From NCBI GenBank assembly GCA_016935015.1, contig JAFGRT010000029.1, positions 1 through 64,000 on the forward strand: DNA of 64,000 nt, read 5' to 3'. Position numbers and translations under genes: made by a program. Below are positions 30,192 through 61,141 of this stretch, piece after piece. The DNA comes from Acidobacteriota bacterium (GTDB lineage: Bacteria; Acidobacteriota; JAAYUB01). Position 1 is the stretch's first letter, and each line of letters opens with the position of its first letter. The notes under the pieces were generated by a model. That model saw only the letters and a list, made by a program, of their open reading frames with translations. It had not been told where the DNA came from and did no database searches.

Positions 30192-30264
30192 CTCGTTTTC
30201 CTCCGGTCGGCCGGTTATGGCCGACAAATCCACATCGCGCGTCAACCATGACCGGCACCGTCGT

Positions 30265-31914
30265 TCATTCCGGCATAACGTCCGATTCCCAGGCGGCGAT
30301 CTCAATCAGATTATGAACCACCCGAAACGGATCCAATTCCTGCATCATCATTGGTAACAGCGCCGGCCCCGCAAACATCAGAAAGGATCCGACGTTAAAA
30401 ACCCGCTCCTGCATGCGCCCGCCGGGCAGGACCTCCTCCAGAACCGCCGCCAGGGCGCCGACCAGATCTTCATTGTCCTTCTTGAGCTGGCGCTGAACCC
30501 GCTCCTCCAGCTTGCTCAGCAGGCCCTGCACCTTGCCGATGGTGGATTCGGCCGAACGAATCATGGGTTCCGGGAAATGTTTCAGTGACAACAGTATATC
30601 GTCCAGTTTCGACTCCAGCGCGGCATAGGCATGCCGGAATTCTTCAAGTTGCTGATCGGCGCCGACTTTCAGCAGCAGATTCCGGGTCAGGGTCGTTTTG
30701 TCCTCAAACAGGCAGTCCGGTGTCAGGTCCAGTTTCTCTAGCTTGCGCAGGGCGGACGGACCCAGCAGGGTGGCCGTAATCCGGGGCCACAACACCGGCG
30801 CCGGGATCCGCCACAGGGGATACAGTTCGCGAATCTGCAACTGGTAGGCCATTTCCGCCGGCCCGCCCACATACAACGCCGTCGGGAAAATGGCATCCTG
30901 GAGCAAAGGCCGTAAGAGCACGTCCGGTGAAAAGCACTCCGGTTCCTCTCGCAGGGCGGACCGGTAGCCAGCCTCATCCCAGACGATATCCGTACCGTCC
31001 ACGGCGAAACGGCCGTCGGAAGATGTCAGCACCCGCCGTCGCCCCTGTTCCGGGTGGAGATAGAACAGGCAACACCGCTCGCGCTGCAGTGCCACTGGGG
31101 CCGGAAAACCATGCTCGACCAAGCGACGGCTGCTGCTCTGAACCCGTTCCGGAATTTCCGCCCGCAGGTCAGCCAGCGGTTGCAGGAAATCTGCCATCAT
31201 GGCCCGGCGATCGGCGGCCATGGGATCGAAAAAGAGCAGGCCGAAGCGGGCGAACCAGCGCTGCATCAGTCTACGGAATGATCGGCCGAATGTCATATCC
31301 GGCCTTACCCCCTCTGCCACCTGGGCCAGAAACTCCCGGCCGGCGGCGGAATCGGGTGTCATTCGCCGCAACTCCTCCAGCACTGAGTGAATCTCTTTCC
31401 CCAGGCGAACCAGTGAGACCGGCCGCATGTCGCCGTTCTCAGGCTGCAGCGTGAAGGTTTGTTGCCGCCCGCCCGGACCAAGGATGGTTGCGGCGGACAC
31501 CTCCGCCAGATCATGATCCTCGCCGGCCACCCAGAAAAGGCCGACTGCCGGAATATTTTCCTTCTGCAGCTCGTTCACCAGTCGCAGCACCGTTATGGCT
31601 TTATAGACCGTGTACAAGGGTCCGCCCAGAAAACCGGCTTGCTGGCCGGTAATCACAAAAACCGCCTTCCCGTCGGCGGCCGTCGCCAGTGCCGCCTTGA
31701 CAGCTGGTTCATCCGCGGGATTCTGATGACAGAGATCCGTCATCACCCGCGGGATGAATGCCGGCCGCTGTGCTGCCGCCAGCAGTCCGGCACGGTTCCA
31801 GCCCGGCACTCCCAGCCACTCCGGAACAGCCTGCCGGTCCTCCAGTATCGCGAACAGGGAATCTCGCAAGGGAGTGTAACGATAGTCCAGGGAACGTACA
31901 TGATAATCCAACAT
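30265..31914 (-). CDS. bshC: BshC, putative bacillithiol cysteine ligase
   Basis: A 549-residue protein with the BshC hallmarks FVITGQQAGFLGGPLYTVYK near residue 85, FWVAGEDHDLAEV near residue 120, and FPTALYVGGPAEMAYQLQ near residue 345; the C-terminal part is a long coiled coil (LEEFRHAYAALESKLDDILL, KLEERVQRQLKKDNEDL). BshC adds cysteine to GlcN-malate in the last step of bacillithiol synthesis. ATG 31914 begins MLDYHVRS as in other members; GGAG lies ten bases upstream and the ORF extension to 32154 is not supported. It opens the bsh operon and is divergent from the helical-repeat gene at 32008. Confidence 0.93.
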   Translation of the reverse strand: MLDYHVRSLDYRYTPLRDSLFAILEDRQAVPEWLGVPGWNRAGLLAAAQRPAFIPRVMTDLCHQNPADEPAVKAALATAADGKAVFVITGQQAGFLGGPLYTVYKAITVLRLVNELQKENIPAVGLFWVAGEDHDLAEVSAATILGPGGRQQTFTLQPENGDMRPVSLVRLGKEIHSVLEELRRMTPDSAAGREFLAQVAEGVRPDMTFGRSFRRLMQRWFARFGLLFFDPMAADRRAMMADFLQPLADLRAEIPERVQSSSRRLVEHGFPAPVALQRERCCLFYLHPEQGRRRVLTSSDGRFAVDGTDIVWDEAGYRSALREEPECFSPDVLLRPLLQDAIFPTALYVGGPAEMAYQLQIRELYPLWRIPAPVLWPRITATLLGPSALRKLEKLDLTPDCLFEDKTTLTRNLLLKVGADQQLEEFRHAYAALESKLDDILLSLKHFPEPMIRSAESTIGKVQGLLSKLEERVQRQLKKDNEDLVGALAAVLEEVLPGGRMQERVFNVGSFLMFAGPALLPMMMQELDPFRVVHNLIEIAAWESDVMPE

Positions 31915-44223: not shown

Positions 44224-46932
<2,709 letters not shown>

Positions 46933-47005: not shown

Positions 47006-47181
47006 GTCGCCTCTTCGCCGGTCCCGATTTGTCTGCATCCGCAGGACGTTGTGGGCCATGGAGATCACGCCGCGAGCCACCTTCGTCTCCGCCGTGGTCC
47101 CATGAGAAATAAATCGTCATCGAACGGCTCTCCGTAAAACCTACCTACTGCACAGGATTCGGCCGGCCGGCCGGTTTTTTC

Positions 47182-47210
47182 TTGACCGACGGCGCCGACC
47201 ATAGTATAAA
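47182..47210 (+). promoter_or_regulatory. Sigma70-type promoter of the envelope cluster
   Basis: TTGACC (five of six) and TATAAA (five of six) are spaced by 17 bases, the best promoter seen in the window. Transcription would begin near 47217, 66 bases before ATG 47283, which has GGAGGAGCAGG directly upstream. All ten genes to 61141 run in this direction. Confidence 0.75.
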
Positions 47211-47282
47211 AAATTGTTCTTAATAAACGACTTAACTTTTTCATTTTCGGGAACCAATGGGATTTCCGTGAGGAGGAGCAGG

Positions 47283-49124
47283 ATGAAATACAGGATGTTC
47301 CTGACGGTTTGCATGCTGGCCCTGGGCCTGGGATCAACCGGATATCTCCGGGGACAGCAGAACTTCAAGGATCTGGTGGGTCCTGTTCAGGTTGGCCCCG
47401 TTCGGCAGACATCGCCAATGGCGGTTCCCTTCATCACCTGGGGGGGTGATATGGCCACGTTCTATGCCAATGGCGGCCTGACAACCCGCTCCGGCACCAT
47501 CTTCAATAAACAGGGGCTGAATCTGAAACTGGAGTCGGGCGACAATTTCATTCAGCAGGTTCGCGATTACATGTCCGGCAAAACCCCGTTTCTGCGAGGC
47601 ACTTTCCGCATGATCGGCATGGCCTCTGAAGTCATCGGCTCCGATCCGCGAACCCAGGGCGTGGTGATCATGCAAATGACCTGGTCGGCGGGCGATCACA
47701 TGGTCGTGCGACCCCACCTGAAAACCATCAGCGATCTAAAAGGAAAAACCGTGGTTCTGCAGCAGGGGGGCCCCCATGTCGGCATGCTGGACGATATTCT
47801 GAAAACAGCCCGTCTCGGCTGGAACGACATCAAGATAATCTGGGCCAAGGAGTTGACCGGTTCCCCCCAGAGTCCGGCGGAAATGTTCCGCAAGGATGCC
47901 AATATCGCCGCCTGTTTCGTCATTACGCCGGACATGATCGGCCTGTGCGGCGGTTTGCAGAACACCGGCTCCGGCGCCGAAGGCACCGTTCGCGGTGCCC
48001 GGGTACTGGTCTCCACCGCCGAGCTATCGCGCTCCATCGCCGACGTGTACGTCTGCCGCAAGGATTTTTACGACGAGAACACCGCGGTCGTGCTCAAATT
48101 CGTGGCCGGATATTTCAAGGCCTGTGAGGAAGTCCTGAAACTGAAAAGGGACTATGAATCCAAGGGCTCCCCCCAGTACATGGACCTGCTTCGTCTCACC
48201 CAGTCCATATACGGCAAGGATGTGATCCCCACCCTGGAGGAAGACGCCCACGGTTTGCTGTCCGACTGCACCTTTGTCGGCTATCCGGGCAATGTGGAAT
48301 TCTTCACCAAGAAGAACAACCTGCATGGTTTTGAGGCATTTTTGAAATCATCCCTCGACCTGGCGGTGGGTCAGGGTTACGCGCGCCAACGATCGGCGTT
48401 TCTCTCCTCGGGTTTTGATTATTCCCTGCCCATTTTCACTGATTACCTGGCCACTATCACCATCCAGAAGCGGGAGCGTTTCCGCGCCGAGGTTGTCCAG
48501 AAAGAGATCGAGGAGTTGAGTGCAGGCGGAGCCCTCGACGAACGGACCATCATCACCTTCACCATCAACTTCGAACCCAACCAGACCGATTTCAGCACCA
48601 ACCGCTACGGATCGGAATATCAGCGTGTCGTGGAGATGGCCGACAAGTATGCCAATGCCGTGATTGCCATCCGCGGGCACTCCGATCCGACCAAAACCCT
48701 GTATGACCTGGTGAAGGCCGGCATCGCCAAGGGAGTGCTGCAGCAGTCGGGCAGCCGTGGCAATTATCGCTATTCCTTTAAGGGCAAACCGCTGGATATC
48801 ACCGAGACTGAAAACATCCTGAAGCTTATCGAAGCGGGTGCCTTTGATGGCGTCCAGGACTACAATCCCCGCCAGACCATGCAGGCGGCGCTGAACCTTT
48901 CCCGAAAGCGGGCGGAGGAAGTGCGGGATACCATTATTGCCTATTGCCGCGGCAAAGGTCTGGAGCTGGACCAGAGCCAGATCCAGGCCGTGGGAGTGGG
49001 CATTCGTGAACCGTTCATCGCCAAACCGGGCAACATGGAGGAAGCCCGCCAGAACATGCGCGTGGAGTTTCGTCTGATCCGGATCACGGCCGAAGCCGAA
49101 TCCAGCACGGTTTTCGATTTTTAG
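47283..49124 (+). CDS. Exported solute-binding domain fused to an OmpA-type domain
   Basis: A 613-residue protein with a signal peptide (MKYRMFLTVCMLALGLGSTG). Residues about 35-400 form a type 2 periplasmic binding fold of the NMT1/NitT/TauT kind: TWGGDMATFYANGG at the ligand cleft start, ISDLKGKTVVLQQGGPHVGM, and VVLKFVAGYFKACEEVLKL. From about residue 420 an OmpA-C-like domain follows (FTINFEPNQTDFS, IAIRGHSDPTK, LSRKRAEEVRDTI), broken by an insertion of about 50 residues (residues 485-545). The OmpA part would hold the protein to peptidoglycan. First gene of the cluster; no lipobox is seen. Ligand unknown. Confidence 0.83.
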   Translation: MKYRMFLTVCMLALGLGSTGYLRGQQNFKDLVGPVQVGPVRQTSPMAVPFITWGGDMATFYANGGLTTRSGTIFNKQGLNLKLESGDNFIQQVRDYMSGKTPFLRGTFRMIGMASEVIGSDPRTQGVVIMQMTWSAGDHMVVRPHLKTISDLKGKTVVLQQGGPHVGMLDDILKTARLGWNDIKIIWAKELTGSPQSPAEMFRKDANIAACFVITPDMIGLCGGLQNTGSGAEGTVRGARVLVSTAELSRSIADVYVCRKDFYDENTAVVLKFVAGYFKACEEVLKLKRDYESKGSPQYMDLLRLTQSIYGKDVIPTLEEDAHGLLSDCTFVGYPGNVEFFTKKNNLHGFEAFLKSSLDLAVGQGYARQRSAFLSSGFDYSLPIFTDYLATITIQKRERFRAEVVQKEIEELSAGGALDERTIITFTINFEPNQTDFSTNRYGSEYQRVVEMADKYANAVIAIRGHSDPTKTLYDLVKAGIAKGVLQQSGSRGNYRYSFKGKPLDITETENILKLIEAGAFDGVQDYNPRQTMQAALNLSRKRAEEVRDTIIAYCRGKGLELDQSQIQAVGVGIREPFIAKPGNMEEARQNMRVEFRLIRITAEAESSTVFDF

Positions 49125-49187
49125 CGGATACACCGGCGGCCGGGCCGCCATGTATGAACAGGTAAGTCACCCGACGGGAAAGAGACA

Positions 49188-50108
49188 ATGCCGTTGAAAA
49201 ATTTCAAGATAATCCATCTCACCCAAGCAGCCGTGATCCTGCTCTCACTGGCGATGGGTGTCGGACAGGCGGCGGTGGACGATCACAACGTGGTCATCGT
49301 GCTGGATGCCTCGGGGTCCATGGGCGGCAAAATGCCCGGCAGTTCCGTCATGAAGATGGATGCCGCCAAGTCCGCCCTCAAGCAGGTCATCCGCGAAGTG
49401 CCGTGGGATACCAACATCGGCCTGCTGGTGTTCAGCGCCGGTAACCTTGACGTCGACTGGGTGTATCCGCTGGGTCCGCGGAACGACGACAAGCTGTTGG
49501 CGGCCATCGATCGCCCCGAACCTTTCGGGGGAACGCCACTGGGCGAATATCTCAAAATGGGGGCCGATCGCCTTCTGAAACAGCGGGCGGAGCAATACGG
49601 CTACGGAACCTACCGGCTGCTGGTGGTCACCGACGGTGAAGCCGGCGATCCCGACATGGTAGAACGTTTCGTCCCCGAGATCATCGCCCGGGGAATCATC
49701 ATCGACGTCATCGGGGTGGATATGGCCGGTCAGCACACCCTGGCCACCAAGGTGCACTCGTATCGCTCCGCCGACAACCCTGGCGCGCTGAAGACCGCCA
49801 TCGCCGATGTCTTCGCCGAGGTGGCCGCCGCCGGAACCGACGGTTTCGGCGAAGACGCCTTCGCCGTGATCGAGCCCATCCCGCAGGAGATGGCGGTCAG
49901 CATGCTGAAAGCCCTTTCCTCGAGCGGCAATCAACCCATCGGCGAGGGTCCGGGGGCGACCGGGGACGATGGGCGGTACGGCGATTCCGCGTCCTCATCC
50001 TCCTCGAGCTGCCTGACGGTGCTGACCTCGTTTTTCGCGGTGCTCATCATCGGCCTGGTGGTGTTCATCATGATCATCATCCTCATCGTCCGGGCGCGAC
50101 GATCCTGA
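49188..50108 (+). CDS. Membrane-anchored von Willebrand A (vWA) protein
   Basis: A 306-residue protein. A signal sequence covers residues 1-28. The vWA domain (about 33-215) has a complete MIDAS: LDASGSMGG, the threonine in FGGTPLGEY and the aspartate in VVTDGEAGD. After a serine-rich linker, a C-terminal hydrophobic helix (VLTSFFAVLIIGLVVFIMII) anchors it, leaving the vWA domain in the periplasm. Metal-dependent binding of a partner is expected. It sits between the two SBP-OmpA genes in the cluster, 63 bases after the first; a ribosome-binding site is weak (GGGAAAGAG). Confidence 0.88.
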   Translation: MPLKNFKIIHLTQAAVILLSLAMGVGQAAVDDHNVVIVLDASGSMGGKMPGSSVMKMDAAKSALKQVIREVPWDTNIGLLVFSAGNLDVDWVYPLGPRNDDKLLAAIDRPEPFGGTPLGEYLKMGADRLLKQRAEQYGYGTYRLLVVTDGEAGDPDMVERFVPEIIARGIIIDVIGVDMAGQHTLATKVHSYRSADNPGALKTAIADVFAEVAAAGTDGFGEDAFAVIEPIPQEMAVSMLKALSSSGNQPIGEGPGATGDDGRYGDSASSSSSSCLTVLTSFFAVLIIGLVVFIMIIILIVRARRS

Positions 50109-50246
50109 GCGCCGGACGGAAAGGATGAAACTTCGCCGGTGGCGGCTACCGGAGGGAACCGCCGATGTTGCACAGGGATGAATGGGGCCTGACCCCCTCG
50201 GTTCATATTCAGGGGGCGACTTCATGAAGAATGAGGACAATAGCTG

Positions 50247-51827
50247 ATGAGCCAACGGAAAGCCACAGGAATCCTGATTGCCGCCCTGATCTGGGTGATC
50301 ATCATTGCTGGCCTGGCTGTTGCCGCCAAGTATCTGATTTTGCCATATTTCGAAGAGAAACTTGAAGAAAATACGGGGTCTGACGGTCTTTTTAAACATG
50401 AGATCCGGCTGGCGCTGGACTCCTTTTCGGGTTATTGCATTCTGCGGTCCGACGCCATGAAGAGAGATTTACAAGGTCGCGGCATCCGGCTGAGCCTGCT
50501 GGACGACAAAGCCAATTACGAACAGCGGATGACCGCTCTGATAAACAAAGAGATCCACATGGCCGTATTCACCGTGGATTCCTTCGTTCTGACCGGTGCC
50601 CGGCATGATAGTTATCCGGCCACCATCGTGATGGTCATCGACGAGACCAAGGGGGCCGACGCCATCGTTGCCTACAAGGATGCCGTGTCCAACGTGCAAG
50701 ACCTCGACGATCCCCAGGCCCGCATCGTCCTCACCCCTTCCTCCCCCAGCGAATTCCTGGCCCGTACCGTCATCGCTCATTTCAGCCTGCCCCGGCTACC
50801 GACCCAGTGGTGGGAAGCCGCCGACGGCTCCGGCGATGTTTACCAGCGCTTTGTCGCTGCCGACCCGAAGGCGCGCCGGGCCTACGTGCTCTGGGAGCCT
50901 TGGGTTTCCCGGGCACTGGAGCGGGAAGGCGCCCACCTGCTGCTGGACAGCTCCCGCCTCAAGGGCTACATCGTGGATGTGCTGGTGGCCGAGCGCAAGT
51001 TTCTGCGGGACCATCCGGACCTTGCCCGCGACGTGACCGAGGCGTATCTGCGGGCCGCCTTCGCCTACTCCCAGACGGAGGAAGACCTGATCGCGTTGGT
51101 GAGTAAAGACTCCGAGAGCGCCGGCGCCCTGGCTCTGAGCGAGGAACAGGCCAAGAAACTGGTGACCGGCATCGAGTGGAAGAACACTCTGGAAAATTAT
51201 GCCTATTTCGGCCTGGCACCGGCGGATCGGAACCGGAACCTGCAGCACATCGAGGAGGTCATCGGCAATATCACCGACGTCCTGGTGAAAACGGAGGCCC
51301 TGAACCGGAATCCGCTGGAGGGCCGGACCAACATCATTTACTACGACCAGATTCTGAAGGAATTGCAGGCCGCTGATTTCCACCCCGGCAAGAAAGTGAA
51401 CCTCATCGAAAACCTGGGGTCGGGCACGGAAAACCTCAACGAGCGCCTCCCCGAAGCGGGCTTGCGCGAATTGACGGTCGAGGAATGGGAGACGCTGGTT
51501 CCCGTCGGGACGCTCCGCATCAATCCCATCAGCTTCGCCCGGGGCACGGCCCGCATCAATATCCAGAGCCGGCGGGAGATGGCCCGACTGGCCAAAAACA
51601 TGGAGGCCTGGCCCAAATATTACGTCCTCATCACCGGCCATGCCCGGGCCGAGGGTGAGCCCCAGGCCAATCTGCGCCTGGCCCGGCAGCGGGCCGAGGC
51701 CAGCCGGAGTTTTCTTATCGACGCCGGCGTCGCCGAGAAACGCATTCGCGTCTTGGCGGCGCCGTCCAAAACCCGCGGCGGTTCGGCCCAGTCCGTATCA
51801 TTCGAGCTGCTTCAGCTGCCTTACTGA
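50247..51827 (+). CDS. Membrane-anchored solute-binding/OmpA fusion protein
   Basis: A 526-residue protein. The N-terminal ILIAALIWVIIIAGLAVAAK is an uncleaved anchor candidate, with the rest outside. Residues about 50-300 show a periplasmic binding fold (HEIRLALDSFSGYCILRSDA, YVLWEPWVSRALEREG), and residues about 420-526 an OmpA-C domain (RINPISFARGTARINIQSRR, YYVLITGHARAEGEPQANLR, LARQRAEASRSFLIDAGV). In public databases, proteins of this layout are named phosphate ABC transporter substrate-binding/OmpA family protein. It could link the inner membrane to peptidoglycan while sampling a ligand. GAGGA precedes ATG 50247. Confidence 0.83.
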   Translation: MSQRKATGILIAALIWVIIIAGLAVAAKYLILPYFEEKLEENTGSDGLFKHEIRLALDSFSGYCILRSDAMKRDLQGRGIRLSLLDDKANYEQRMTALINKEIHMAVFTVDSFVLTGARHDSYPATIVMVIDETKGADAIVAYKDAVSNVQDLDDPQARIVLTPSSPSEFLARTVIAHFSLPRLPTQWWEAADGSGDVYQRFVAADPKARRAYVLWEPWVSRALEREGAHLLLDSSRLKGYIVDVLVAERKFLRDHPDLARDVTEAYLRAAFAYSQTEEDLIALVSKDSESAGALALSEEQAKKLVTGIEWKNTLENYAYFGLAPADRNRNLQHIEEVIGNITDVLVKTEALNRNPLEGRTNIIYYDQILKELQAADFHPGKKVNLIENLGSGTENLNERLPEAGLRELTVEEWETLVPVGTLRINPISFARGTARINIQSRREMARLAKNMEAWPKYYVLITGHARAEGEPQANLRLARQRAEASRSFLIDAGVAEKRIRVLAAPSKTRGGSAQSVSFELLQLPY

Positions 51828-51876
51828 CGGGGCGGGCAGTGACGAATGCGGACCGTCGTGCGGACGACGAGAGATC

Positions 51877-52662
51877 ATGAAGAACGACGGCAAGGCACAA
51901 CCCGATCTCTGGCGAAGGAACATCCTGGACAGGTCTGTTTTCACCAGACGATTCATTTCGAGACTGGCGTCGCATCCCTGGACCCTGCTGCCGTTTCTGG
52001 GAGGAATCACTGATTTGCTGGCCCTGTGGACCTTCAGCATCCAGTCGCCGCCCGCCGTATTCGCCGGCCTGGCAGCGGTGTTCCTCTCCGTGGGAGTCTT
52101 CCTGACCCGGCTGATCACGGGCAGCGAAGGCGTAGCCAAACTGGTCCTGGAGGAAATGGAACAGGAAGCCATCCGCAAGCGCGAGCGCACCCTCGACGAA
52201 CTGGACCGAAAGTTGACCGCCGACGGAGATTCGCGCACGGAAAAATGCCTGCGGGATTTACGAACCCTCGCCCGGGCATTCCAGCAGGACAAGGCATGGC
52301 TGTCGACCCTCAACACACGGTCGACCTTCGACATCCTCTCGGGAGTTGAGCAACTGTTCATGCGCTGCGTGCACTATCTTGAGAAAACCCTCCAACTCTG
52401 GTACACTGCCCGCGATATGTCCACCCCTGAAGCCAGGGACGCCATTCTCGCCGAGCGGGAGCGAATCCTCGAGGATGTCACCGCCAGCGTTCGCCAGCTG
52501 GGCAAAATTCTGGCCGGCATCCAGCGCCTGGGCGTATCCGAGGGCGAAGCCGGTTCCGATCTGGCGCACATCCGAGATGAAATGGACCAGAGCCTCGCAG
52601 TCGCCAAGGCCGTGGAGAAGCGGATGACAGACCTGGAGCGTGAACTGGACACCGAGGTCTGA
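51877..52662 (+). CDS. Membrane protein with long cytoplasmic coiled coil, unknown
   Basis: A 261-residue protein. Two hydrophobic helices lie near residues 31-50 and 54-75 (LLPFLGGITDLLALW, AGLAAVFLSVGVFLTRLITG). The rest is helical and charged (VLEEMEQEAIRKRERTLDEL, LRDLRTLARAFQQDKAWLST, ILEDVTASVRQLGKILAG). The layout recalls XpaC-like proteins that accompany TelA/PspA genes, but I cannot assign a family. ATG 51877 is chosen; the ORF from 51640 is another frame of the upstream gene. Its place before the PspA-like gene suggests a membrane adaptor. Confidence 0.7.
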   Translation: MKNDGKAQPDLWRRNILDRSVFTRRFISRLASHPWTLLPFLGGITDLLALWTFSIQSPPAVFAGLAAVFLSVGVFLTRLITGSEGVAKLVLEEMEQEAIRKRERTLDELDRKLTADGDSRTEKCLRDLRTLARAFQQDKAWLSTLNTRSTFDILSGVEQLFMRCVHYLEKTLQLWYTARDMSTPEARDAILAERERILEDVTASVRQLGKILAGIQRLGVSEGEAGSDLAHIRDEMDQSLAVAKAVEKRMTDLERELDTEV

Positions 52663-52793
52663 TTCAAGGTACGGATAAGGTTGGGGTCACGCGGCCCAGC
52701 ACCACCGGACCAGAACGAGATCGGGGTGGTGCCCTTGAAACGAATATCGTCCTCTCGCCGGGACGCCCGCAGAGAGGCAGAAGGAGAAAACCT

Positions 52794-53633
52794 ATGTTCA
52801 AGGCAATTGCACGCTGGTTCAAGGCTTTTGGGTATTTGTTGACCGGGCAGATCGACGCCGCCCGGCGGACGCTGGATACCAATCCCCACGTCGTTCGTGC
52901 CAAGTATGACGAGATCATTCGGGAAAAGACCAGCCGGATCCAGCAGTACAAGCAGGCGGTGGCCGGGTTGATCGCTCAGCAGGAAAACAAGATCGCCAAA
53001 GTCAAGAACCTGACGGAAGAGGTTCAGCGCCTGCAGCGCCTCAAGGCGGGCGCCCTGGCCAAGGCCAAGCAGCTGGTCCAGAAACTCCAGGAGCAGGGCC
53101 AGAGCAAGGAGGAGATTCAGGGCGACGGCGAATACCAGAAATGCCTGACGGCCTACAATGATTTTTCATCCACCCTCGCCGAAAAGAACGAACGGATCAT
53201 CGAACTTGAGAACGATATCGGGACATACAGCACACGTATTCAGGAGCACAAGGTCCAGCTGCAACACTTGCTGCGCGATATCGAACACGTCAAATCCGAA
53301 GCATCCGACGCTGTGGCTGATATCATCACCGCCAAGCAGGAACAGGAGCTGGCCGACGCTTTCGCCGGGATTGCCGAGGATGGAACCGCGCGGGAACTAC
53401 AGGAGTTGCGACAGCTGCGGCAGGAGGTCAAAGCCGAGGCGCGGATTTCCAAGGAACTGGCCGGCACCGATTCACGGGCCCAGGAAGTCGAATTCCTGGA
53501 GTATGCCCGCAAGTCCGCCGTCAACGAGGAATTTGACGCCCTCGTCGGTTTGGCGGAGGAAAAAGACACGGCGGAGACACCCAAGGAAAAAGCCGGCTCG
53601 GACGAGGAAAAAACTTCCTCCCTGCCGGAGTAG
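52794..53633 (+). CDS. PspA/IM30-like membrane-remodelling protein
   Basis: A 279-residue helical protein. It starts with an amphipathic segment (MFKAIARWFKAFGYLLTG) like the membrane-binding helix of PspA, followed by long coiled coils (IREKTSRIQQYKQAVAGLIA, KVKNLTEEVQRLQRLKAGAL, IIELENDIGTYSTRIQEH). PspA/Vipp1 are ESCRT-III-like proteins that oligomerise on and repair the inner membrane. The acidic tail is longer than in E. coli PspA. AAGGAG lies seven bases before its ATG. Confidence 0.82.
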   Translation: MFKAIARWFKAFGYLLTGQIDAARRTLDTNPHVVRAKYDEIIREKTSRIQQYKQAVAGLIAQQENKIAKVKNLTEEVQRLQRLKAGALAKAKQLVQKLQEQGQSKEEIQGDGEYQKCLTAYNDFSSTLAEKNERIIELENDIGTYSTRIQEHKVQLQHLLRDIEHVKSEASDAVADIITAKQEQELADAFAGIAEDGTARELQELRQLRQEVKAEARISKELAGTDSRAQEVEFLEYARKSAVNEEFDALVGLAEEKDTAETPKEKAGSDEEKTSSLPE

Positions 53634-53693
53634 TCGCCCCGAAAGTGGTGACGAGAATACCGTCATATTTCACAGATCACAAAGGAGGCGTTT

Positions 53694-54779
53694 ATGAAGA
53701 CTCGCACATCCAGATATATCCTGATTGCAGCCGCGCTGGCGGTGATTCTGGCCGTTCCGGCGATCTGGATCATGATCCGGGCGGATGAGGTCCCCACGTT
53801 CAGTCTGGCCTGGAGTGAATACCCGTCCTGGAGCGCATTCGGCGTAGCCCATGAGTTCGGCTTTATCAACGGCAAGAAGGGCGAAATCGGCCCCATCGAG
53901 AAAAAGTGGGGCGTCGATATCGAACTGAAGGAAGCCGACTATGACACCTGCCTGGTGATGTACGGCTCGGGCAAATGCGACGCCGTCTGTATCACCAACA
54001 TGGACGCCCTGATCCCCTGCCTGACCCGCAAATCCGTCGGAATACTGCCCACATCCACCAGTTTCGGCGCGGACGCCTGCATCGTAGACGCCCGCATCAC
54101 CGACATCCAGCAACTGCGGGGCAAAAAGGTGTACGGCCTGGCCAAAACGGTGTCCGAATACTGCTTTGTCCGGAATGTCGAGATCCTGGGTGAGAAGGAA
54201 GCCGATTTCCGGTTCACCAACATGGATCCGGCGGCGGCGGCGCTGGCCATGCAGCAGAAGCGGGATGGCTTCGACGCCATTGTGGTCTGGAATCCTTTCG
54301 TGCTCGAGACGCTCAACAAGCGGAAGGACGCCCGCGTGCTGTTCGACTCCACCACTATTCCCGGTGAAATTATCGACATGGTGGTCATGACTCAGGAATC
54401 ACTCGACAAACCGGGCGGCGACAAGTTCGCCTGGGCGGTCATCGATGCCTTTTATACCATCAACCAGCAGATGGCCAAGTCTGAAACCCGGGATGAAACC
54501 CTCATCGCCCTAGGTGAGAAGTTCTCCAACCTCGACCTGAACTCCATGCGCAAAGTGGTGCAGCAGACCCGTTTTTACTCCTCACCGGAAGAGGGCATCA
54601 AGGTGCTCGGCAAGGAAGCCACCGCCGGCATCATGGAAAAAGTGGTCGCGTTCTGTGTTTCTCACGAAATCGTGCCCGAAGCCCCAGCCGTCGGCTTCGG
54701 CAGCCGGGCCGAGGCGAAAGAGGTGGCGTTCCGGCTCGATCCGGCCTACATCAAGGGATATGTCGCCAAATCCAAATAA
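53694..54779 (+). CDS. ABC transporter solute-binding protein, NitT/TauT type
   Basis: A 361-residue type 2 periplasmic binding protein. An N-terminal hydrophobic segment (YILIAAALAVILAVPAIWIM) is a signal peptide or anchor. The ligand domain begins TFSLAWSEYPSWSAFGVAHE and includes VMYGSGKCDAVCITNMDALI and QQLRGKKVYGLAKTVSEYC. The related NMT1/SsuA proteins bind nitrate, taurine, sulfonates or thiamine precursors; here the ligand is not known. AAGGAGG supports ATG 53694. The permease and ATPase follow directly. Confidence 0.9.
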   Translation: MKTRTSRYILIAAALAVILAVPAIWIMIRADEVPTFSLAWSEYPSWSAFGVAHEFGFINGKKGEIGPIEKKWGVDIELKEADYDTCLVMYGSGKCDAVCITNMDALIPCLTRKSVGILPTSTSFGADACIVDARITDIQQLRGKKVYGLAKTVSEYCFVRNVEILGEKEADFRFTNMDPAAAALAMQQKRDGFDAIVVWNPFVLETLNKRKDARVLFDSTTIPGEIIDMVVMTQESLDKPGGDKFAWAVIDAFYTINQQMAKSETRDETLIALGEKFSNLDLNSMRKVVQQTRFYSSPEEGIKVLGKEATAGIMEKVVAFCVSHEIVPEAPAVGFGSRAEAKEVAFRLDPAYIKGYVAKSK

Positions 54780-54788
54780 GGGCACGGC

Positions 54789-55595
54789 ATGATTCGTCAA
54801 CCCATCAGCACCCGTCTGACCGTCCTGCTGGGGATTATTTCCGTCGTCGCCCTGCTGGCGGGCTACACCTTGTTGTCCTCCATGCAGCACCTGGACAATC
54901 CGGACGACACCACCATTCCCACCTGGTCACAGCTCGGGGAAGGTCTGCAACGCTTGATCGAGGCCAATCCCCGGACCGGCGAGCGCTGGTTGCTCCTCGA
55001 TGCCGAGGCCACCGCCACCCGGCTGTTCCTGGGCCTGTTTTGTGGCATCCTCGGCGCCATCATCCTGGGCCTGCTGATGGGCTGCTATGCCCCCATCGAG
55101 GCGCTGCTGGTGCCGCCGATGTCGCTGCTGGCCAAGATTCCGCCTACCGCCGCTCTGGCCGTCTTTTTCGTACTGGTGGGCACGGACACCGAAATGTACG
55201 TGGCCATGATTGCCTTCGGCGTACTACCCACCCTCGCCCAGTCCGTTTACCTGGCGGTCCATGACGTACCCCGGGAGATGCTGTACAAGGCTTACACCCT
55301 GGGCGCCTCCCAGATGGAATTGATCTGGAACATCATCGTACGGGCGGTGTTCCCCCGGCTGATCGATGCCGTCCGGCTCCAGATCGGACCGGCCATGGTC
55401 TATCTCATCGCGGCGGAAATGATTCTGGGCGACGTGGGCTTCGGCTACCGCATCCGGTTGCAAATGCGCCTGCTGAACATGAACGTGGTGTATCCCTATC
55501 TGACGTTTCTGGCCGTGTTCGGTTTCACCATGGATTACTGCCTGCGCCTGCTCCAGCGGGTAACCTGCCCCTGGTTCGTCCGGCATGGAAGGTGA
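54789..55595 (+). CDS. ABC transporter permease, NitT/TauT type
   Basis: A 268-residue permease with about six membrane segments. The coupling (EAA) motif is EMLYKAYTLGASQMELIWNI near residue 165, which docks with the ATPase. It belongs to the BPD_transp_1/SsuC group that imports small anions. A periplasmic loop of about 50 residues (residues 33-80) between the first two segments is longer than usual. The gene starts nine bases after the solute-binding gene. Confidence 0.93.
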   Translation: MIRQPISTRLTVLLGIISVVALLAGYTLLSSMQHLDNPDDTTIPTWSQLGEGLQRLIEANPRTGERWLLLDAEATATRLFLGLFCGILGAIILGLLMGCYAPIEALLVPPMSLLAKIPPTAALAVFFVLVGTDTEMYVAMIAFGVLPTLAQSVYLAVHDVPREMLYKAYTLGASQMELIWNIIVRAVFPRLIDAVRLQIGPAMVYLIAAEMILGDVGFGYRIRLQMRLLNMNVVYPYLTFLAVFGFTMDYCLRLLQRVTCPWFVRHGR

Positions 55596-55599
55596 GCAG

Positions 55600-56550
55600 A
55601 TGGAGCATCCGCTCGTACTCGAAATCCAGAAACTGTCCCACTGGTTCGGCGACAACCTCGTGCTGCACAATCTGGACCTGAATATCATCCGCGGCGAAAT
55701 TGTCTCGCTGGTGGGGCCCAGTGGTTGCGGCAAGTCCACCCTGCTGCGGGCCATCGTCGGCACGCACCCCCCCTGTCGTGGGCAAGTGGCGGTCTACGCC
55801 TTGGGCGCCACCACGCCCACGGTCGTGGTCAATCCCAGCCGCGACCGGGGGATCGTCTACCAGCAATATTCCCTGTTCCCTTTTCTGACCGCCGCACAGA
55901 ACGTGGCCATGGGGCTGATGCTGGATCAGACCAGCCTCCCTTTCCGGTTCTTCCGCCACATGTCCTGGCGAAATCTCCGGCGGCGCCACCTGGAGGAAGC
56001 GGAGGCCCTGCTGGAAAAGCTCAAGCTGGCAAACGCCATCCGCCTGTACCCGCACGAGATGTCCGGCGGCATGTGTCAGCGGGTGGCCATCGCCCAGGCC
56101 CTGATCATGAAACCGGAGATCCTCTTGCTGGACGAACCCTTCGGCGCGCTGGACGAAGCCACGCGAGAGGAACTGCAGCGCATGCTGCTGACTCTGTACC
56201 AGGAAAATATCGACGCCCGGGCGAAGGGAGAGGATTCGCCCTATACCATCATGATCGTCACTCACGAACTCAACGAGGCCATTTACGTAGGTGATCGGGT
56301 GGTGGCTCTTTCCCAGTTTTGGAACTGGCAGGAACAGGGGCACCTGCGGTGCCCGGGGGCCACTATCGTGCTGGACCAACCCGTTCCGGTCTACCATCCC
56401 GATGAGGAACGAAATTTTGAGACCTTCATTCAGGTCCGCCGGCGAATCCGCCAGGCGGCGTTCGAATCCTCGGTTCTTCAGGATCCGCGGGAATATAAAA
56501 CCTTTGCGGCGGATCTGGCATCCGGCCGCGGCGAAGGCGTGCTGCGATGA
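55600..56550 (+). CDS. ABC transporter ATPase, NitT/TauT type, with C-terminal extension
   Basis: A 316-residue nucleotide-binding subunit. Walker A is GPSGCGKST, Q loop VYQQYSLFPFLTA, signature MSGGMCQRVAIA, Walker B ILLLDEPFGALD and H loop VTHELNEA. It differs from simple SsuB/NrtD proteins by an insert (LPFRFFRHMSWRNLRRRHL) and about 65 residues after the last conserved strand (VYHPDEERNFETFIQVRRRI onward). ATG 55600 follows AAGG by seven bases; the ATG at 55585 overlaps the permease. Its TGA overlaps the AAA+ gene (ATGA). Confidence 0.93.
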   Translation: MEHPLVLEIQKLSHWFGDNLVLHNLDLNIIRGEIVSLVGPSGCGKSTLLRAIVGTHPPCRGQVAVYALGATTPTVVVNPSRDRGIVYQQYSLFPFLTAAQNVAMGLMLDQTSLPFRFFRHMSWRNLRRRHLEEAEALLEKLKLANAIRLYPHEMSGGMCQRVAIAQALIMKPEILLLDEPFGALDEATREELQRMLLTLYQENIDARAKGEDSPYTIMIVTHELNEAIYVGDRVVALSQFWNWQEQGHLRCPGATIVLDQPVPVYHPDEERNFETFIQVRRRIRQAAFESSVLQDPREYKTFAADLASGRGEGVLR

Positions 56551-58370
56551 GTACTTTATCGGACGACTCCTTTCTGAAAACGGCTGGCCGGATTCTGAAT
56601 TCCGGCCAGTCGCGCACCCTGATCTTCACCGGGAATATTCACGACCTGTTCCGCCAGTCACAGGTCGACAGCACCGAGTATGTCCCCCTGCAGCAGTTGC
56701 TGTGCACCAAATGGCAGGTTCCGCAGCGGATCCTCATCGTCTACGAGCTGAACGGCCCCATCCGATTCGTCAGCGAGTCGGATCGGGACAAAGTGCGCGA
56801 AGCGTGGTTGCGCTGGCGCACCGGACTGGACAGCAATGACCTGGCTATCAAGACGATGCTCAGCCCGACTCGGGAGCAGTCCCGCCTGGACCAGCTGGGG
56901 CGGTCATTCGACAGCAACCTGACTTCCGCCATCGGCAAACCGACTCTGGCCCTGGAGATGCTCCGCCAGATCTGCCTCTGCTCTCGGACGATCCTGGACG
57001 GAAAGCCCATTCTATCCCAGGATCTCATCATTCTGATCGAAGCCGCCGACATGCTGATCCCCGAGGGCGAGATCAGCCGGCTGTCCGATGCCGACCGTCA
57101 CCGGGTCAGCATCTGCCACGACTGGTTTTCCGATCCCGAATTCGCCCGTCACAGCGACGCCGTCATTCTCCTGGCGGAGTCCCGCAGCCTGTTGAACCAG
57201 CGGGTGGCCATGCTGCCGCCCGTCCTCGAGATCAACATCCCCGCCCCCGGTCATGAAGACCGCCTGGCGTTCATCCGGTGGTTCCAGGAACGCCAGGAGC
57301 CGGGCCAAAGCCTGCGCCTCTGGTCCACTGACGACGAGCTGGCCCGGTTCACCGCCGGATTGAGCATTCACGCCCTCATGCAGCTGCTCAAGGGAGCGGT
57401 GCACGAGAAACGGCCGATCGGCCTGACCGATGTGGTGGCCAAGGTAGAGGAATTCATCCAGCGTCAGCTGGGCGAGGACATCGTCGAATTCAAGAAACCC
57501 AGCCACACTCTGGAGCAGGTAGTGGGATTCACCCACCTCAAGGATTTCCTGCGGCGGGAGCTCATCCCCCGCTTCCTTTCCACCGGCACCGACGCCTTGC
57601 CCGGCGCGGCCGTCTGCGGGCCCATCGGCAGTGGCAAAACGTTCATCTTCGAAGCCGTGGCCAATGAGCTGGACATGGTGGTGCTCGTTCTGAAGAATAT
57701 TCGCAGCATGTGGTACGGCCAGACAGATGTCGTCTTCGAACGCCTGCGCCGGGTCCTGGACGCCCTCACCAAGGTGTTGATCTTTGTGGACGAAGCCGAC
57801 ACCCAGTTCGGGGGTATCGGGCCTGAAACCCATTCCACCGAGCGGCGCCTCACTGGCAAGATTCAGGCCATGATGTCCGATCCCCAATTGCGCGGACGGG
57901 TAATCTGGCTGCTCATGACGGCCCGCATTCATCTGCTATCGCCCGATATCCGTCGGCCGGGCCGGGTGGGCGACCTGATCATCCCCGTCCTGGATCCGAC
58001 GGGTGAGGACCGCGAGAAATTCGTGCGCTGGACGATCGGGGTAGCCCTCGGCAAGGCCCCCACAAAAACGGCCCTGGAGCAGACCACTCCGCTGATGTAC
58101 GACTATTCCGCCGCCAGTTTTGCCTCGCTCCGGTCGGAATTAAAGGCCCATGTGGTGATGAAAAAAGGCGCTCTGACGCTCACAGAGATCCAGGCCATCA
58201 TCCGCGACCACATTCCGCCGGCCATCGGGGAAATGCGCCGCTTCCAGACCCTGCAGGCCCTGGTAAACTGCACCCGGCGCAGCCTGTTGCCTGATCCCGA
58301 CGTCACCGCGGAACAGCGTTCGGATTGGGAACGGGAGATCCGGGCCCTCGAGGCCAAGGGAATCCGATGA
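56547..58370 (+). CDS. AAA+ ATPase, Ycf46-like
   Basis: A 607-residue ATPase. The N-terminal 300 residues form a P-loop-like domain without a Walker A (RTLIFTGNIHDLF; LIILIEAADMLI). The C-terminal AAA+ domain has Walker A GPIGSGKT near residue 357, Walker B LIFVDEAD near residue 410, sensor 1 WLLMTAR and the arginine-finger region RRPGRVGD. Two-domain Ycf46-like proteins have this layout. It is translated through an ATGA overlap with the ABC ATPase, so it belongs to the same operon. It may remodel the PspA oligomer or the transporter; that is inference. Confidence 0.87.
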   Translation: MSTLSDDSFLKTAGRILNSGQSRTLIFTGNIHDLFRQSQVDSTEYVPLQQLLCTKWQVPQRILIVYELNGPIRFVSESDRDKVREAWLRWRTGLDSNDLAIKTMLSPTREQSRLDQLGRSFDSNLTSAIGKPTLALEMLRQICLCSRTILDGKPILSQDLIILIEAADMLIPEGEISRLSDADRHRVSICHDWFSDPEFARHSDAVILLAESRSLLNQRVAMLPPVLEINIPAPGHEDRLAFIRWFQERQEPGQSLRLWSTDDELARFTAGLSIHALMQLLKGAVHEKRPIGLTDVVAKVEEFIQRQLGEDIVEFKKPSHTLEQVVGFTHLKDFLRRELIPRFLSTGTDALPGAAVCGPIGSGKTFIFEAVANELDMVVLVLKNIRSMWYGQTDVVFERLRRVLDALTKVLIFVDEADTQFGGIGPETHSTERRLTGKIQAMMSDPQLRGRVIWLLMTARIHLLSPDIRRPGRVGDLIIPVLDPTGEDREKFVRWTIGVALGKAPTKTALEQTTPLMYDYSAASFASLRSELKAHVVMKKGALTLTEIQAIIRDHIPPAIGEMRRFQTLQALVNCTRRSLLPDPDVTAEQRSDWEREIRALEAKGIR

Positions 58371-61141
58371 TCGATCCACCGGGCCACAACATTTCCGCCG
58401 ATCCATCCCGTAAAAAATTTTACACTTATGACCACAAGCACTCCGTCGAAGATTACGCCGATCTCTGGTTTCAGGAATCGGAGGAGGGCCGGATTCTGTT
58501 CGTGGTGTTCTACACCCTGGCCTGCCGCTGGGGTCGCTGTCTCGGCTGCAACCTGCCGGCCCGCAGTTCGCCCGTCCATATCGGCTACCGGGCGCTTCTC
58601 AGGCAGATCGACGGAGTCTTCGGATCACCGGCGGTTCTCGCCCGCCGCCGGGAGATCCGCAAGGTCATTCTGAGCAACAACGGCTCCATCCTGGATGAAG
58701 CCACATTTTCATCTACCGCCCTACTTTATTTCCTGGCGCAATTGAACATCCATTTTCCCCGGCTTTCGGTGCTGAGCATTGAAACCCGGCCAGAGTACGT
58801 GGATCTCGCCGAACTGGAATTCATCGCCCGGGCGCTGGCCGAAGGTGACACCCCGACACAGCTAGAGCTGGCCATCGGCTTCGAAGCGTTCGACGATAGG
58901 ATCCGCAACAACATTTTCCAGAAAGGTCTCGACAAGAAAAATTTCGAAGGGCTGGTGGAGAAAGCGGCGCGGTACGGATTTCACCTCAAATGCTATTTCA
59001 TGCAGAAACCGGTCCCTGGACTCAGCGATGCCGAAGCGATAGCCGATATCCATCGGGCCGTGGATTATCTCGCCGACCTGGCGATCCGGGAGAACGCCCG
59101 TATCAATCTGCATCTGAACCCGACATTCGCCGCCCGGGGAACTCCGCTGGCAACCGCTTTCCGGAAGGGCGAATTCCGGCCGCCCCGGCTGCTGGATGTG
59201 GCCCGGGCGGCGCTGCACGCCGCCGGAAAACCCCTTTCCGTTTTCATTGGGCTCTCCGATGAGGGGCTGGCCGTCGATGGGGGGTCGTTTTTGTTGCCGG
59301 GTGAGGAGCCGCTGGCGGCACAACTCGAGGCATTCAACCGTACCCAGAACCATGAAATCCTGGTGAAGATGGTAACCGGCAGTGGAACGACAGCCCTCGA
59401 TCCGTCCGCGTCAGCCGGAACAGGTACTATTCCGGATAAACACCACCATCGGCCTGCCATTGCCTACGGCCGGAAGGACGGAATGACATCCTCTCTCCAA
59501 AAAGGACAGGACCCGGACCTGGAAGAGATCTCGCATGCCCCCGTCAGGAGAGATGCCGCATCGAATCTGTTCGCCGGACTGGACGTTTCGACGCAGAGCT
59601 GCAAACTGGTGGTTATTGATCCCGCCGTCGGGGATGTCCTCCTGGTGGAGACCGTCAACTACGACCGGGATCTTCCCCATTACGGCACGCGCGACGGAGT
59701 GATCCCCGAACTGGGCCCGGGCGTAGCCGAATCCGACCCCCGCATGTGGCTCGAGGCGGTGGACAGCGTTCTTCAGCGGCTGGCGGATTCGTCCGTTCCC
59801 CAGGCCCGAATACGCGGCCTGTCCGTCTCGGGCCAGCAACACGGCCTGGTGGCCCTTGACGCCGCCGGCCGTCTCACTCGTTCACGCAGCAAGCTCTGGA
59901 ACGACGTCTCCACCCATGAAGAGTGCCGCTGGCTCACCGAGCAGGTGGGCGGCCCGGCGGCCATGCTTCAGGAAATCGGCAATCGGCAGCGGCCGGGGTA
60001 CACCGCCGGTAAGATTCTCCACCTGATCCGCCAGGAACCCGCCGCCTTCGAACAAGCAGCCACCCTGTTCATCGTCCACAATTTCATCAACTGGTATCTG
60101 ACCGGGGGGCCTGAGGGCGGCGTCCGCTGTTTGGATCCCGGCGAGGCCTCGGGGCTGGGCCTCTGGAATCCACGCACCGGCGACTGGTCGCGCCGGTTGA
60201 TCTCGGCCATTCATCCCGACCTCGCCGGAAAGCTGCCCCCCCTCTTGCCGGCCGATGCCGTCATCGGGACTATCTCCCCTCAATTGGCCCACCGGTTCGA
60301 TCTGTCAACCGAGTGCCTGATTGCCGCCGGCAGTGGAGACAACCAGCTGGCCGCCCTGGGCACCGGCCATACCGGTCCCGGCCGGGTAACGGTTTCCCTG
60401 GGGACCAGCGGCACGGTTTGTACCGTCTACGAGACGCCACCACCGGCCGACGACGGCGCCATCGCCCTTTACCGTGACAGTACCGGGCGGTATTTATCCC
60501 TGCTCTGCGTGTCCAACCTGGCCAACGGTTACAACGCCTTGCGGCGCGAATACGGCCTCATTCACGCCGATTTCGAGCGACTGGTGGCGCACACTCCGCC
60601 GGGCAACGGCGGGCGTCTGCTCATCCCCTGGCATGACGGGGAGCGGACACCGGACCTGCCCCTGGCGGTGCCTGTGCACTTCGGGTTCGGCCTGGCGGAT
60701 TTTACGCCGGAAATCCTCTGCCGGGCCGTTCTCGAAGGCCATGTCCTGAACCTGTACGAGGGTTATCGCCTGATGAACCTGACGCCGGGGGAAATCCGAC
60801 TGACGGGCGGCCTGGCACGATCGGCGGCGTGGGGCCAGTGTATCGCCGATGTTTTTGCCGTCGACTCCATTCCGGTGGAGGGAGAGGGTGCCGCCCTGGG
60901 GGCCGCCCTGCACGCCGCCTGGATTTGGGAGAGGAATCATCACAGCGGACGGGCGTTATCTGAAATCGTGGATCCTTTCATCATCATGGACGAAACCCGG
61001 CGGTGCCGGCCCCACCCCGAACTGGCGGAAATAGTCGAACTGCAGCGACGGCTGTTCCGGGCGGTGAGCCGCCGGATTCGCGGGGAAAGCGGCGAGGATC
61101 CCTTCCGCCTGGGTCACGAGTTACGTTCGCGATCGACCTGA
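58367..61141 (+). CDS. Radical SAM domain running in frame into a xylulokinase
   Basis: A 924-residue frame with two complete halves. Residues 1-345 are a radical SAM enzyme: cysteines C53, C58 and C61 (ACRWGRCLGCN) bind the cluster; SNNGSILDEATF, SIETRPEYVD and IGFEAFDDRIRN follow. These match the RaSEA/TIGR01210-like tRNA-type radical SAM proteins. Residues about 400-900 are a FGGY kinase: GLDVSTQSCK, SGQQHGLVALD, SGDNQLAALG and GGLARSAAWGQCIADVFAVD, closest to xylulokinase. The linker (residues 346-395) is low in complexity. ATG 59483, with GGAAGG before it, could start the kinase separately. ATG 58367 overlaps the AAA+ stop. Fusion or missing stop cannot be told apart here. Confidence 0.85.
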   Translation: MIDPPGHNISADPSRKKFYTYDHKHSVEDYADLWFQESEEGRILFVVFYTLACRWGRCLGCNLPARSSPVHIGYRALLRQIDGVFGSPAVLARRREIRKVILSNNGSILDEATFSSTALLYFLAQLNIHFPRLSVLSIETRPEYVDLAELEFIARALAEGDTPTQLELAIGFEAFDDRIRNNIFQKGLDKKNFEGLVEKAARYGFHLKCYFMQKPVPGLSDAEAIADIHRAVDYLADLAIRENARINLHLNPTFAARGTPLATAFRKGEFRPPRLLDVARAALHAAGKPLSVFIGLSDEGLAVDGGSFLLPGEEPLAAQLEAFNRTQNHEILVKMVTGSGTTALDPSASAGTGTIPDKHHHRPAIAYGRKDGMTSSLQKGQDPDLEEISHAPVRRDAASNLFAGLDVSTQSCKLVVIDPAVGDVLLVETVNYDRDLPHYGTRDGVIPELGPGVAESDPRMWLEAVDSVLQRLADSSVPQARIRGLSVSGQQHGLVALDAAGRLTRSRSKLWNDVSTHEECRWLTEQVGGPAAMLQEIGNRQRPGYTAGKILHLIRQEPAAFEQAATLFIVHNFINWYLTGGPEGGVRCLDPGEASGLGLWNPRTGDWSRRLISAIHPDLAGKLPPLLPADAVIGTISPQLAHRFDLSTECLIAAGSGDNQLAALGTGHTGPGRVTVSLGTSGTVCTVYETPPPADDGAIALYRDSTGRYLSLLCVSNLANGYNALRREYGLIHADFERLVAHTPPGNGGRLLIPWHDGERTPDLPLAVPVHFGFGLADFTPEILCRAVLEGHVLNLYEGYRLMNLTPGEIRLTGGLARSAAWGQCIADVFAVDSIPVEGEGAALGAALHAAWIWERNHHSGRALSEIVDPFIIMDETRRCRPHPELAEIVELQRRLFRAVSRRIRGESGEDPFRLGHELRSRST

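Follow-up and report, generated by a model that had tools for sequence, protein, structure and literature searches.

The window analysed here is a stretch of 64,000 nucleotides from an Acidobacteriota bacterium (assembly GCA_016935015.1, contig JAFGRT010000029.1, positions 1 to 64,000 of the forward strand), and in it nine open reading frames (ORFs), g1 to g9, follow one another on the + strand between positions 47283 and 58370. They encode two fusions of a solute-binding protein (SBP) to an OmpA domain, a vWA protein, a coiled-coil membrane protein, a PspA-like protein, a third SBP with the permease and the ATPase of an ABC (ATP-binding cassette) importer, and an AAA+ ATPase. A first-pass annotation had listed nine same-strand genes with these identities, and both the ORF positions and the profile matches agree with it, with the reservations that the matches of g1 and the PspA match of g5 are below threshold and that g4 belongs to no known family. 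From g1 to g8 the genes are separated by 63, 138, 49, 131, 60, 9 and 7 bases, and g8 and g9 overlap by 4 bases. The recurrence of this gene order across phyla exceeds chance, and the sequence comparisons place the PspA-like protein g5 and the AAA+ ATPase g9 at the probable core of the unit.

Gene content of the cluster

The first gene, g1 (47283..49124), codes for an SBP-OmpA protein of 613 amino acids that is probably exported; its NMT1 match (19.6 bits) is just under the cut-off, and its OmpA match (18.7 bits) is also under it. The OmpA domain carries the pair predicted to bind peptidoglycan, Asp468 and Arg543, and each residue is kept in 43/43 relatives. The other SBP-OmpA protein, the membrane-anchored product of g3 (50247..51827; 526 amino acids; OmpA, 44 bits), starts with a hydrophobic segment (residues 3-36), and in its OmpA domain the peptidoglycan-binding Asp is lost (0/32 relatives) and the Arg is kept (32/32). 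Between them lies g2 (49188..50108), a vWA protein (46 bits) with an N-terminal signal or anchor and a C-terminal transmembrane helix (hydrophobic segments 6-26 and 270-306), in which the residues of the metal ion-dependent adhesion site are retained, namely DxSxS in 45/45, the Thr in 44/45 and the Asp in 45/45 relatives. The g4 protein (51877..52662) consists of a membrane hairpin and a helical bundle or coiled coil, and its model (predicted local distance difference test, pLDDT, 84.5) gave no convincing fold match. The assignment of g4 to ESCRT-III was also considered, and it is not supported, since neither an ESCRT-III fold match nor homology to g5 (hhalign) was found.

Downstream of g5, genes g6 (53694..54779), g7 (54789..55595) and g8 (55603..56550) encode a NitT/TauT-like SBP and the permease and ATPase of an ABC importer, the last two recognized by profile matches. 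The model closest to g6 is TIGR03427, a urea-type SBP, at 150.5 bits, which is below the equivalog cut-off of 333.9. The sequence search of the PDB with g6 gave a single weak match, and therefore no substrate is proposed for the SBPs.

Conservation of the nine-gene set

An alignment of g9 was scanned against 84,980 species genomes, which yielded 131 relatives, 80 of them kept, and the membership of genes at each locus was judged with profiles built from the nine genes. When loci from a search of the window's own phylum and from unbiased g5 searches are also taken in, all nine genes lie in one cluster at 31 other loci. The order is identical at 21 of these; three further ones deviate from the window by a wider gap alone, and in seven, of the Planctomycetota type, g9 is shifted to the front, with g8 on the opposite strand in five of them. 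Full sets were found in records labelled Verrucomicrobiota, Planctomycetota, Thermodesulfobacteriota, Hydrogenedentota, Pseudomonadota and CSSED10-310, as well as in the window's own phylum, and partial or reduced sets additionally in records labelled Myxococcota, Lentisphaerota and Acidobacteriota, some of these carrier names being possibly wrong (loci L048 and L052 carry candidate-phylum labels). Culturable carriers include Aeoliella straminimaris (L057) and Botrimarina colliarenosi (L083). The genes outside the block vary from locus to locus, and therefore the outer ends of g1 and g9 mark the limits of what is conserved. The check that had been proposed for the grouping, i.e., whether the homologues are usually separate in other genomes, came out in its favour, also because the genes are co-retained even if unlinked (see below).

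Few genomes carry the set (about 0.5-4% in four phyla). A search based on g5 gave a match in 5/297 genomes of the window's own phylum, 9/246 of Planctomycetota, 5/241 of Verrucomicrobiota and 1/198 of a Desulfobacterota sample, and the set was absent from all three genomes of the family to which the window belongs. In the unbiased g5 search of three phylum samples, 14/15 g5 homologues were either next to g9 or in a cluster that contains it (L012, L018, L043 and L057 among them). The sole exception, L112, is a weak g5 relative with no g9 nearby and without the C-terminal [LI]PE tail described below; this lone, distant relative (L112:9528-10301) is found among Mur-like genes of cell-wall synthesis.

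The pairwise distances of the nine proteins correlate at 0.74-0.94 in 30 clusters, to which shared genome descent contributes. The window g9 is 67% identical to the copy of L011, from another phylum, and less so to copies from its own phylum (47% for L006 and 31% for L007). This closer relation to other phyla points to a horizontal movement of the whole unit or to old duplicates. A second and very distant version of the system is present in the own phylum (L007, L008 and L009), with an AAA+ protein on a very long branch and a PspA-like protein that ends in RPxI. If the nine genes were chance neighbours, or a mobile island without a common function, a rare and patchy occurrence like the one counted above would be in keeping, and so would the affinity of the window copy to other phyla, which suggests that the unit probably moves horizontally. 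Against such a reading, the gene order is maintained between g9 proteins linked only via that very long branch (L007 versus the rest), and genes of the set are retained together when unlinked, so that we regard it as very improbable and already close to refuted.

Reduced and split arrangements

Three arrangements recur: the full nine genes, the series g1-g2-g3-g4-g5-g9 without the importer, and the g5-g9 pair by itself. The importer-free series is found in L114 and L115, and L009 is similar, with the importer missing from the linked cluster and a weak g1 at the contig end; only distant g6 homologues were found elsewhere in the genomes of these clusters. The minimal pair (e.g., L108, L110 and L111) occurs in genomes that have neither a g1 match nor close g6 relatives. 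It adjoins very large ATPases in L108, L110, L111, L066, L085 and L016, a DUF3686 domain being confirmed in L108, and YqiJ-like and flotillin-like membrane proteins are encoded near the pair in L108, L110 and L111, with a weak YqiJ_N match in L108 and L111. The two surroundings of the pair suggest that one AAA+ core may have been plugged into two different envelope systems.

In Pirellula-type Planctomycetota the genes are distributed over distant loci, with g9-g1-g2 at one and g3-g4-g5-g6-g7 at another, or g9 and g5 stand alone; in the split genomes the second locus is usually g3-g4-g5-g6-g7. Among 24 genomes with a detached g9, 22 retain g5 elsewhere, compared with 9/246 genomes of the Planctomycetota sample (Fisher p about 5e-23, relatedness ignored). 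As judged from these sequence comparisons, the core of the unit appears to be the g5-g9 pair, and the importer appears to be optional. It is therefore unlikely that the two SBP-OmpA proteins, g1 and g3, are simply extra binding proteins for the importer.

These arrangements also bear on a different reading of the locus, in which it is chiefly an ABC importer operon: a single NitT/TauT-type importer would be supplied by all three binding proteins, and the role of the PspA-like and AAA+ proteins would be limited to assembling or maintaining this membrane complex. Genes g6-g8 do form an intact importer, which is present in most complete loci, and g6 is related to TIGR03427; furthermore, Ravi et al. 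2024 (PMC11237479) suggest in the main text that the solute transported by the linked importer is the ligand of the binding domain. The clusters of L114, L115 and also L009, with only distant g6 homologues elsewhere, and the g5-g9 pairs that stand alone in genomes lacking both g1 and any close relative of g6 argue against it, and we consider an importer operon of this kind unlikely.

The PspA-like protein and its C-terminal tail

The g5 gene (52794..53633) encodes a protein with 45-71% identity to its relatives across the carrier phyla. PspA_IM30 is the commonest Pfam match of these relatives (13/25 at E<=0.1, best 3.6e-5), one of which, in genome G782, clears the PF04012 threshold with 34.2 bits, and the best PDB sequence match is Vipp1 (E 0.0028). 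In the AlphaFold2 model (pLDDT 78) an amphipathic helix is followed by a long hairpin (helices 31-100 and 112-193), as is typical of the ESCRT-III superfamily, and by further helices, and Vipp1 structures are the top fold matches of this predicted model in the PDB (best 6zvr, E 3.2e-4). The N-terminal helix is amphipathic by computation, with a hydrophobic moment of 0.56 that is attained by 0.5% of shuffles. Because of the Pfam matches of the relatives and the Vipp1 matches in sequence and in fold, g5 is best described as a divergent PspA/Vipp1-like protein of the ESCRT-III superfamily, despite its own sub-threshold Pfam score; the earlier label "PspA/IM30-like" is thus supported by these matches, but not by the Pfam threshold. 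The idea that g5 replaces canonical PspA in its carriers was rejected: 25/31 carriers have no PF04012 match, but only 25/241 Verrucomicrobiota have one over the cut-off, and therefore its absence from carriers says nothing.

After the last helix of g5, a linker predicted to be disordered (residues 255-275, pLDDT <50) leads to a C-terminal SLPE, and the codons of the conserved Leu-Pro-Glu lie at 53622..53630 on the + strand. Conservation of the majority residue, which is 0.69 in the last helix, falls to 0.38 within the linker and reaches 0.92 over the three terminal residues. Overall, 67/72 g5 relatives carry an [LI]PE tail after a variable linker. In the first set of 52 relatives, 47 end in [LI]PE, followed by no more than one extra residue, three end in RPxI and two in neither, and all the g5 proteins of split genomes (20/20) end in [LI]PE plus one residue. 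The RPxI endings are those of the distant subtype (L007, L008 and L009; 3/3), whose g9 is very different. An [LI]PE ending was present in 0/20 canonical PspA proteins and in none of the other eight cluster proteins, and it is retained in the minimal pairs, which have no constant partner except g9. The AAA+ protein Vps4 of ESCRT-III systems binds short C-terminal motifs of the ESCRT-III proteins (PMC7618577), and by analogy [LI]PE looks like a docking tail for the g9 motor.

The tail might instead signal to something besides g9, for example by marking g5 for degradation or by binding a housekeeping protein, in which case g9 would act on another substrate such as g4, the permease or the DUF3686 ATPase. 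This would fit with the lack of an MIT domain in g9, and no partner pocket was identified. However, g9 alone recurs as a partner in every arrangement, including the minimal pairs, which keep the tail; the tail is missing from L112, with no nearby g9, and from the canonical PspA proteins, and RPxI takes its place in the subtype whose g9 is very different. On balance, a target of the tail other than g9 seems improbable to us.

The AAA+ ATPase

The product of g9 (56547..58370) has an N-terminal half without Walker A and a C-terminal AAA domain (55.7 bits), the only one recognized by profile. In this domain the Walker A GxxGxGKT and Walker B DEA motifs are intact in 84/84 relatives, and the RPGR arginine-finger region is found in 81-82/84. 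An aromatic pore loop, [WY][FY]G, is also conserved, and such a loop is the usual mark of AAA+ proteins that thread their substrates. As judged by these motifs, g9 would have the active AAA domain with an aromatic pore loop that a Vps4-like working requires. The best PDB sequence matches of g9 are AAA domains of the Cdc48/VCP type. Neither an MIT nor a Vps4_C domain was found in it (Pfam, E<=1), and therefore g9 is not a member of the Vps4 family even if it works alike.

Flanks of the unit

The first-pass annotation had described a cluster of ten genes that starts from one good promoter. The tenth ORF (58367..61141, + strand), which overlaps g9 by 4 bases, is a fusion of a RaSEA-like radical-SAM protein (TIGR01210, 97.9 bits, below the cut-off) and a xylulokinase (XylB, 313 bits). 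A separate radical-SAM gene directly after g9 was found only in the relatives L011, L012 and L106, so that the tenth gene was rejected as a member of the unit and appears to be an occasional neighbour of g9; the conserved unit comprises nine genes. As for the promoter, a site that reads TTGACC-N17-TATAAA (10/12 match) is indeed present at 47182..47210 on the + strand, upstream of g1, but matches of this quality are not above chance in the window (two found versus 1.46 expected), and what supports this site is its position just upstream of g1. Directly before it lies a terminator-like hairpin with a T run (47159-47176), which probably ends acnA (44224-46932), the gene that precedes the run on the + strand. 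No Rfam match, and thus no riboswitch or other RNA upstream of g1, was detected anywhere in the window. Farther away, at 28306-30305, glycosyltransferase-like and deacetylase-like genes lie side by side and, by impression from their sequence, resemble the bacillithiol BshA/BshB pair.

A model for the function of the unit

We somewhat favour the reading that the nine genes form one functional unit, a remodelling machine of the ESCRT-III/Vps4 type that communicates through the inner membrane with binding proteins and the cell wall. In this model, g5 would polymerise on the inner face of the membrane via its amphipathic N-terminal helix, and g4 would probably tie the polymer to the membrane. A g9 hexamer would capture the free [LI]PE tail and thread g5 through its aromatic pore loops, so that the g5 polymer is disassembled or reshaped. 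On the other side of the membrane, the wall-bound g1, the membrane-anchored g3, whose OmpA domain is without the Asp that binds the wall, and g2 with its vWA domain would make up a periplasmic sensor or tether, which may report a ligand or the distance between wall and membrane. The optional importer, g6-g8, could supply or clear the same small ligand. What the comparisons show is that the set is conserved and co-retained, that catalytic and binding motifs are intact, that g5 is related in fold to PspA/Vipp1 and that its tail is conserved; polymerisation, capture of the tail, sensing and the direction of control are what we infer. The proposal of a single envelope system that had been made for this DNA therefore stands as the best reading as far as one unit with PspA-like and AAA+ membrane remodelling and putative periplasmic sensing is concerned, in agreement with Ravi et al. 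2024, with the corrections that it has nine genes, that the importer is apparently optional and that its outline was already published.

A more specific version of this model is advanced only tentatively. According to it, g5 and g9 would make up a genuine ESCRT-III/Vps4 machine of bacteria, whose AAA+ protein recognizes a Leu/Ile-Pro-Glu tail as a convergent counterpart of the MIT-interacting motif (MIM), and in the nine-gene version the activity of this machine would be gated across the membrane by peptidoglycan-anchored and membrane-anchored binding proteins together with the vWA protein.

Several observations weigh against these proposals. The window g5 scores 12 bits with PF04012, whose threshold is 33.9, and under the Pfam criterion it falls outside PspA/IM30; the structures that match its fold are long helical hairpins, and their TM-scores (template modelling scores) are modest. 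With no MIT domain in g9, recognition of the tail would need another surface, and the tail could serve a partner other than g9. Two genomes with g9 show no detectable g5, and the contig of L008 is without g9. Finally, the carriers are mostly metagenome bins, and the counts disregard relatedness, L059 and L113 being perhaps one assembly counted twice.

What makes the unit of interest is that a PspA-like protein and an AAA+ protein stay together in linked, reduced and split arrangements. This bears on a question raised by Liu et al. 2021 (PMC8281802), for whom it is unclear if PspF plays the part of Vps4 for PspA, or if an equivalent ATPase assists Vipp1, and who consider it uncertain whether homology or convergence accounts for the C-terminal elements that these proteins share with ESCRT-III. 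The three-residue tail allows a small deletion that makes the g5-g9 pairing directly testable, and the two SBP-OmpA proteins, only one of which has the wall-binding Asp, offer a testable route by which a periplasmic state might control a cytoplasmic remodelling machine.

Comparison with known systems

The operon type is already published in outline (PMC11237479), and the window cluster is an instance of it. The main text of Ravi et al. 2024 (mSystems, PMC11237479) describes PspA with a two-domain AAA+ protein whose N-terminal copy is inactive, and longer operons that add a transmembrane Snf7-like protein, an ABC ATPase, a permease and PBPB-OmpA (example OGG56892.1), for which ATP-dependent membrane remodelling tied to solute transport was proposed. 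The window likewise has PspA-family, AAA+, ABC ATPase, permease and SBP-OmpA genes in one same-strand run, together with a transmembrane helical partner, and a remodelling role is proposed for both. Where Ravi et al. have an inactive N-terminal AAA copy, the N-terminal half of g9 has no Walker A and is not recognized as AAA by profile; where they have a transmembrane Snf7 homologue, g4 has a membrane hairpin and helices with no ESCRT-III fold match. The main text of that paper says nothing of a vWA protein, of two SBP-OmpA proteins that differ in wall binding, of a third SBP, of the C-terminal tail, of importer-free versions or of split genomes, nor does it contain a match for C-terminal motif, MIM, Planctomycetes or Verrucomicrobia. 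No experiments on this operon were found in the literature searched.

Canonical PspA/Vipp1 systems (pspFABC, Vipp1) share with g5 the predicted hairpin fold and the amphipathic N-terminal helix, and Vipp1 is its best PDB match; in contrast, g5 is sub-threshold in Pfam, has no PspB, PspC or PspF neighbours and carries the [LI]PE end that is missing from 20/20 canonical proteins. The PspA-linked flotillin operons, also described in PMC11237479, recall the minimal g5-g9 pair beside a giant ATPase and a YqiJ-like protein (L108, L110 and L111; DUF3686 tested in L108), and such flotillin/YqiJ/DUF3686-ATPase operons differ from the window in that they lack SBP-OmpA, vWA and importer genes. With archaeal and eukaryotic ESCRT-III and Vps4 the unit shares a helical-hairpin remodeller, a short C-terminal motif past a flexible linker and a dedicated AAA+ protein; it differs from them in a g9 without MIT and Vps4_C and with best matches of the Cdc48/VCP type, in a tail that consists of the three terminal residues, and in periplasmic parts that have no ESCRT counterpart. 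As far as can be checked against earlier work, the g5 tail, the hierarchy of core and accessory genes and the co-retention of g5 and g9 when unlinked are additions to what had been described for these systems.

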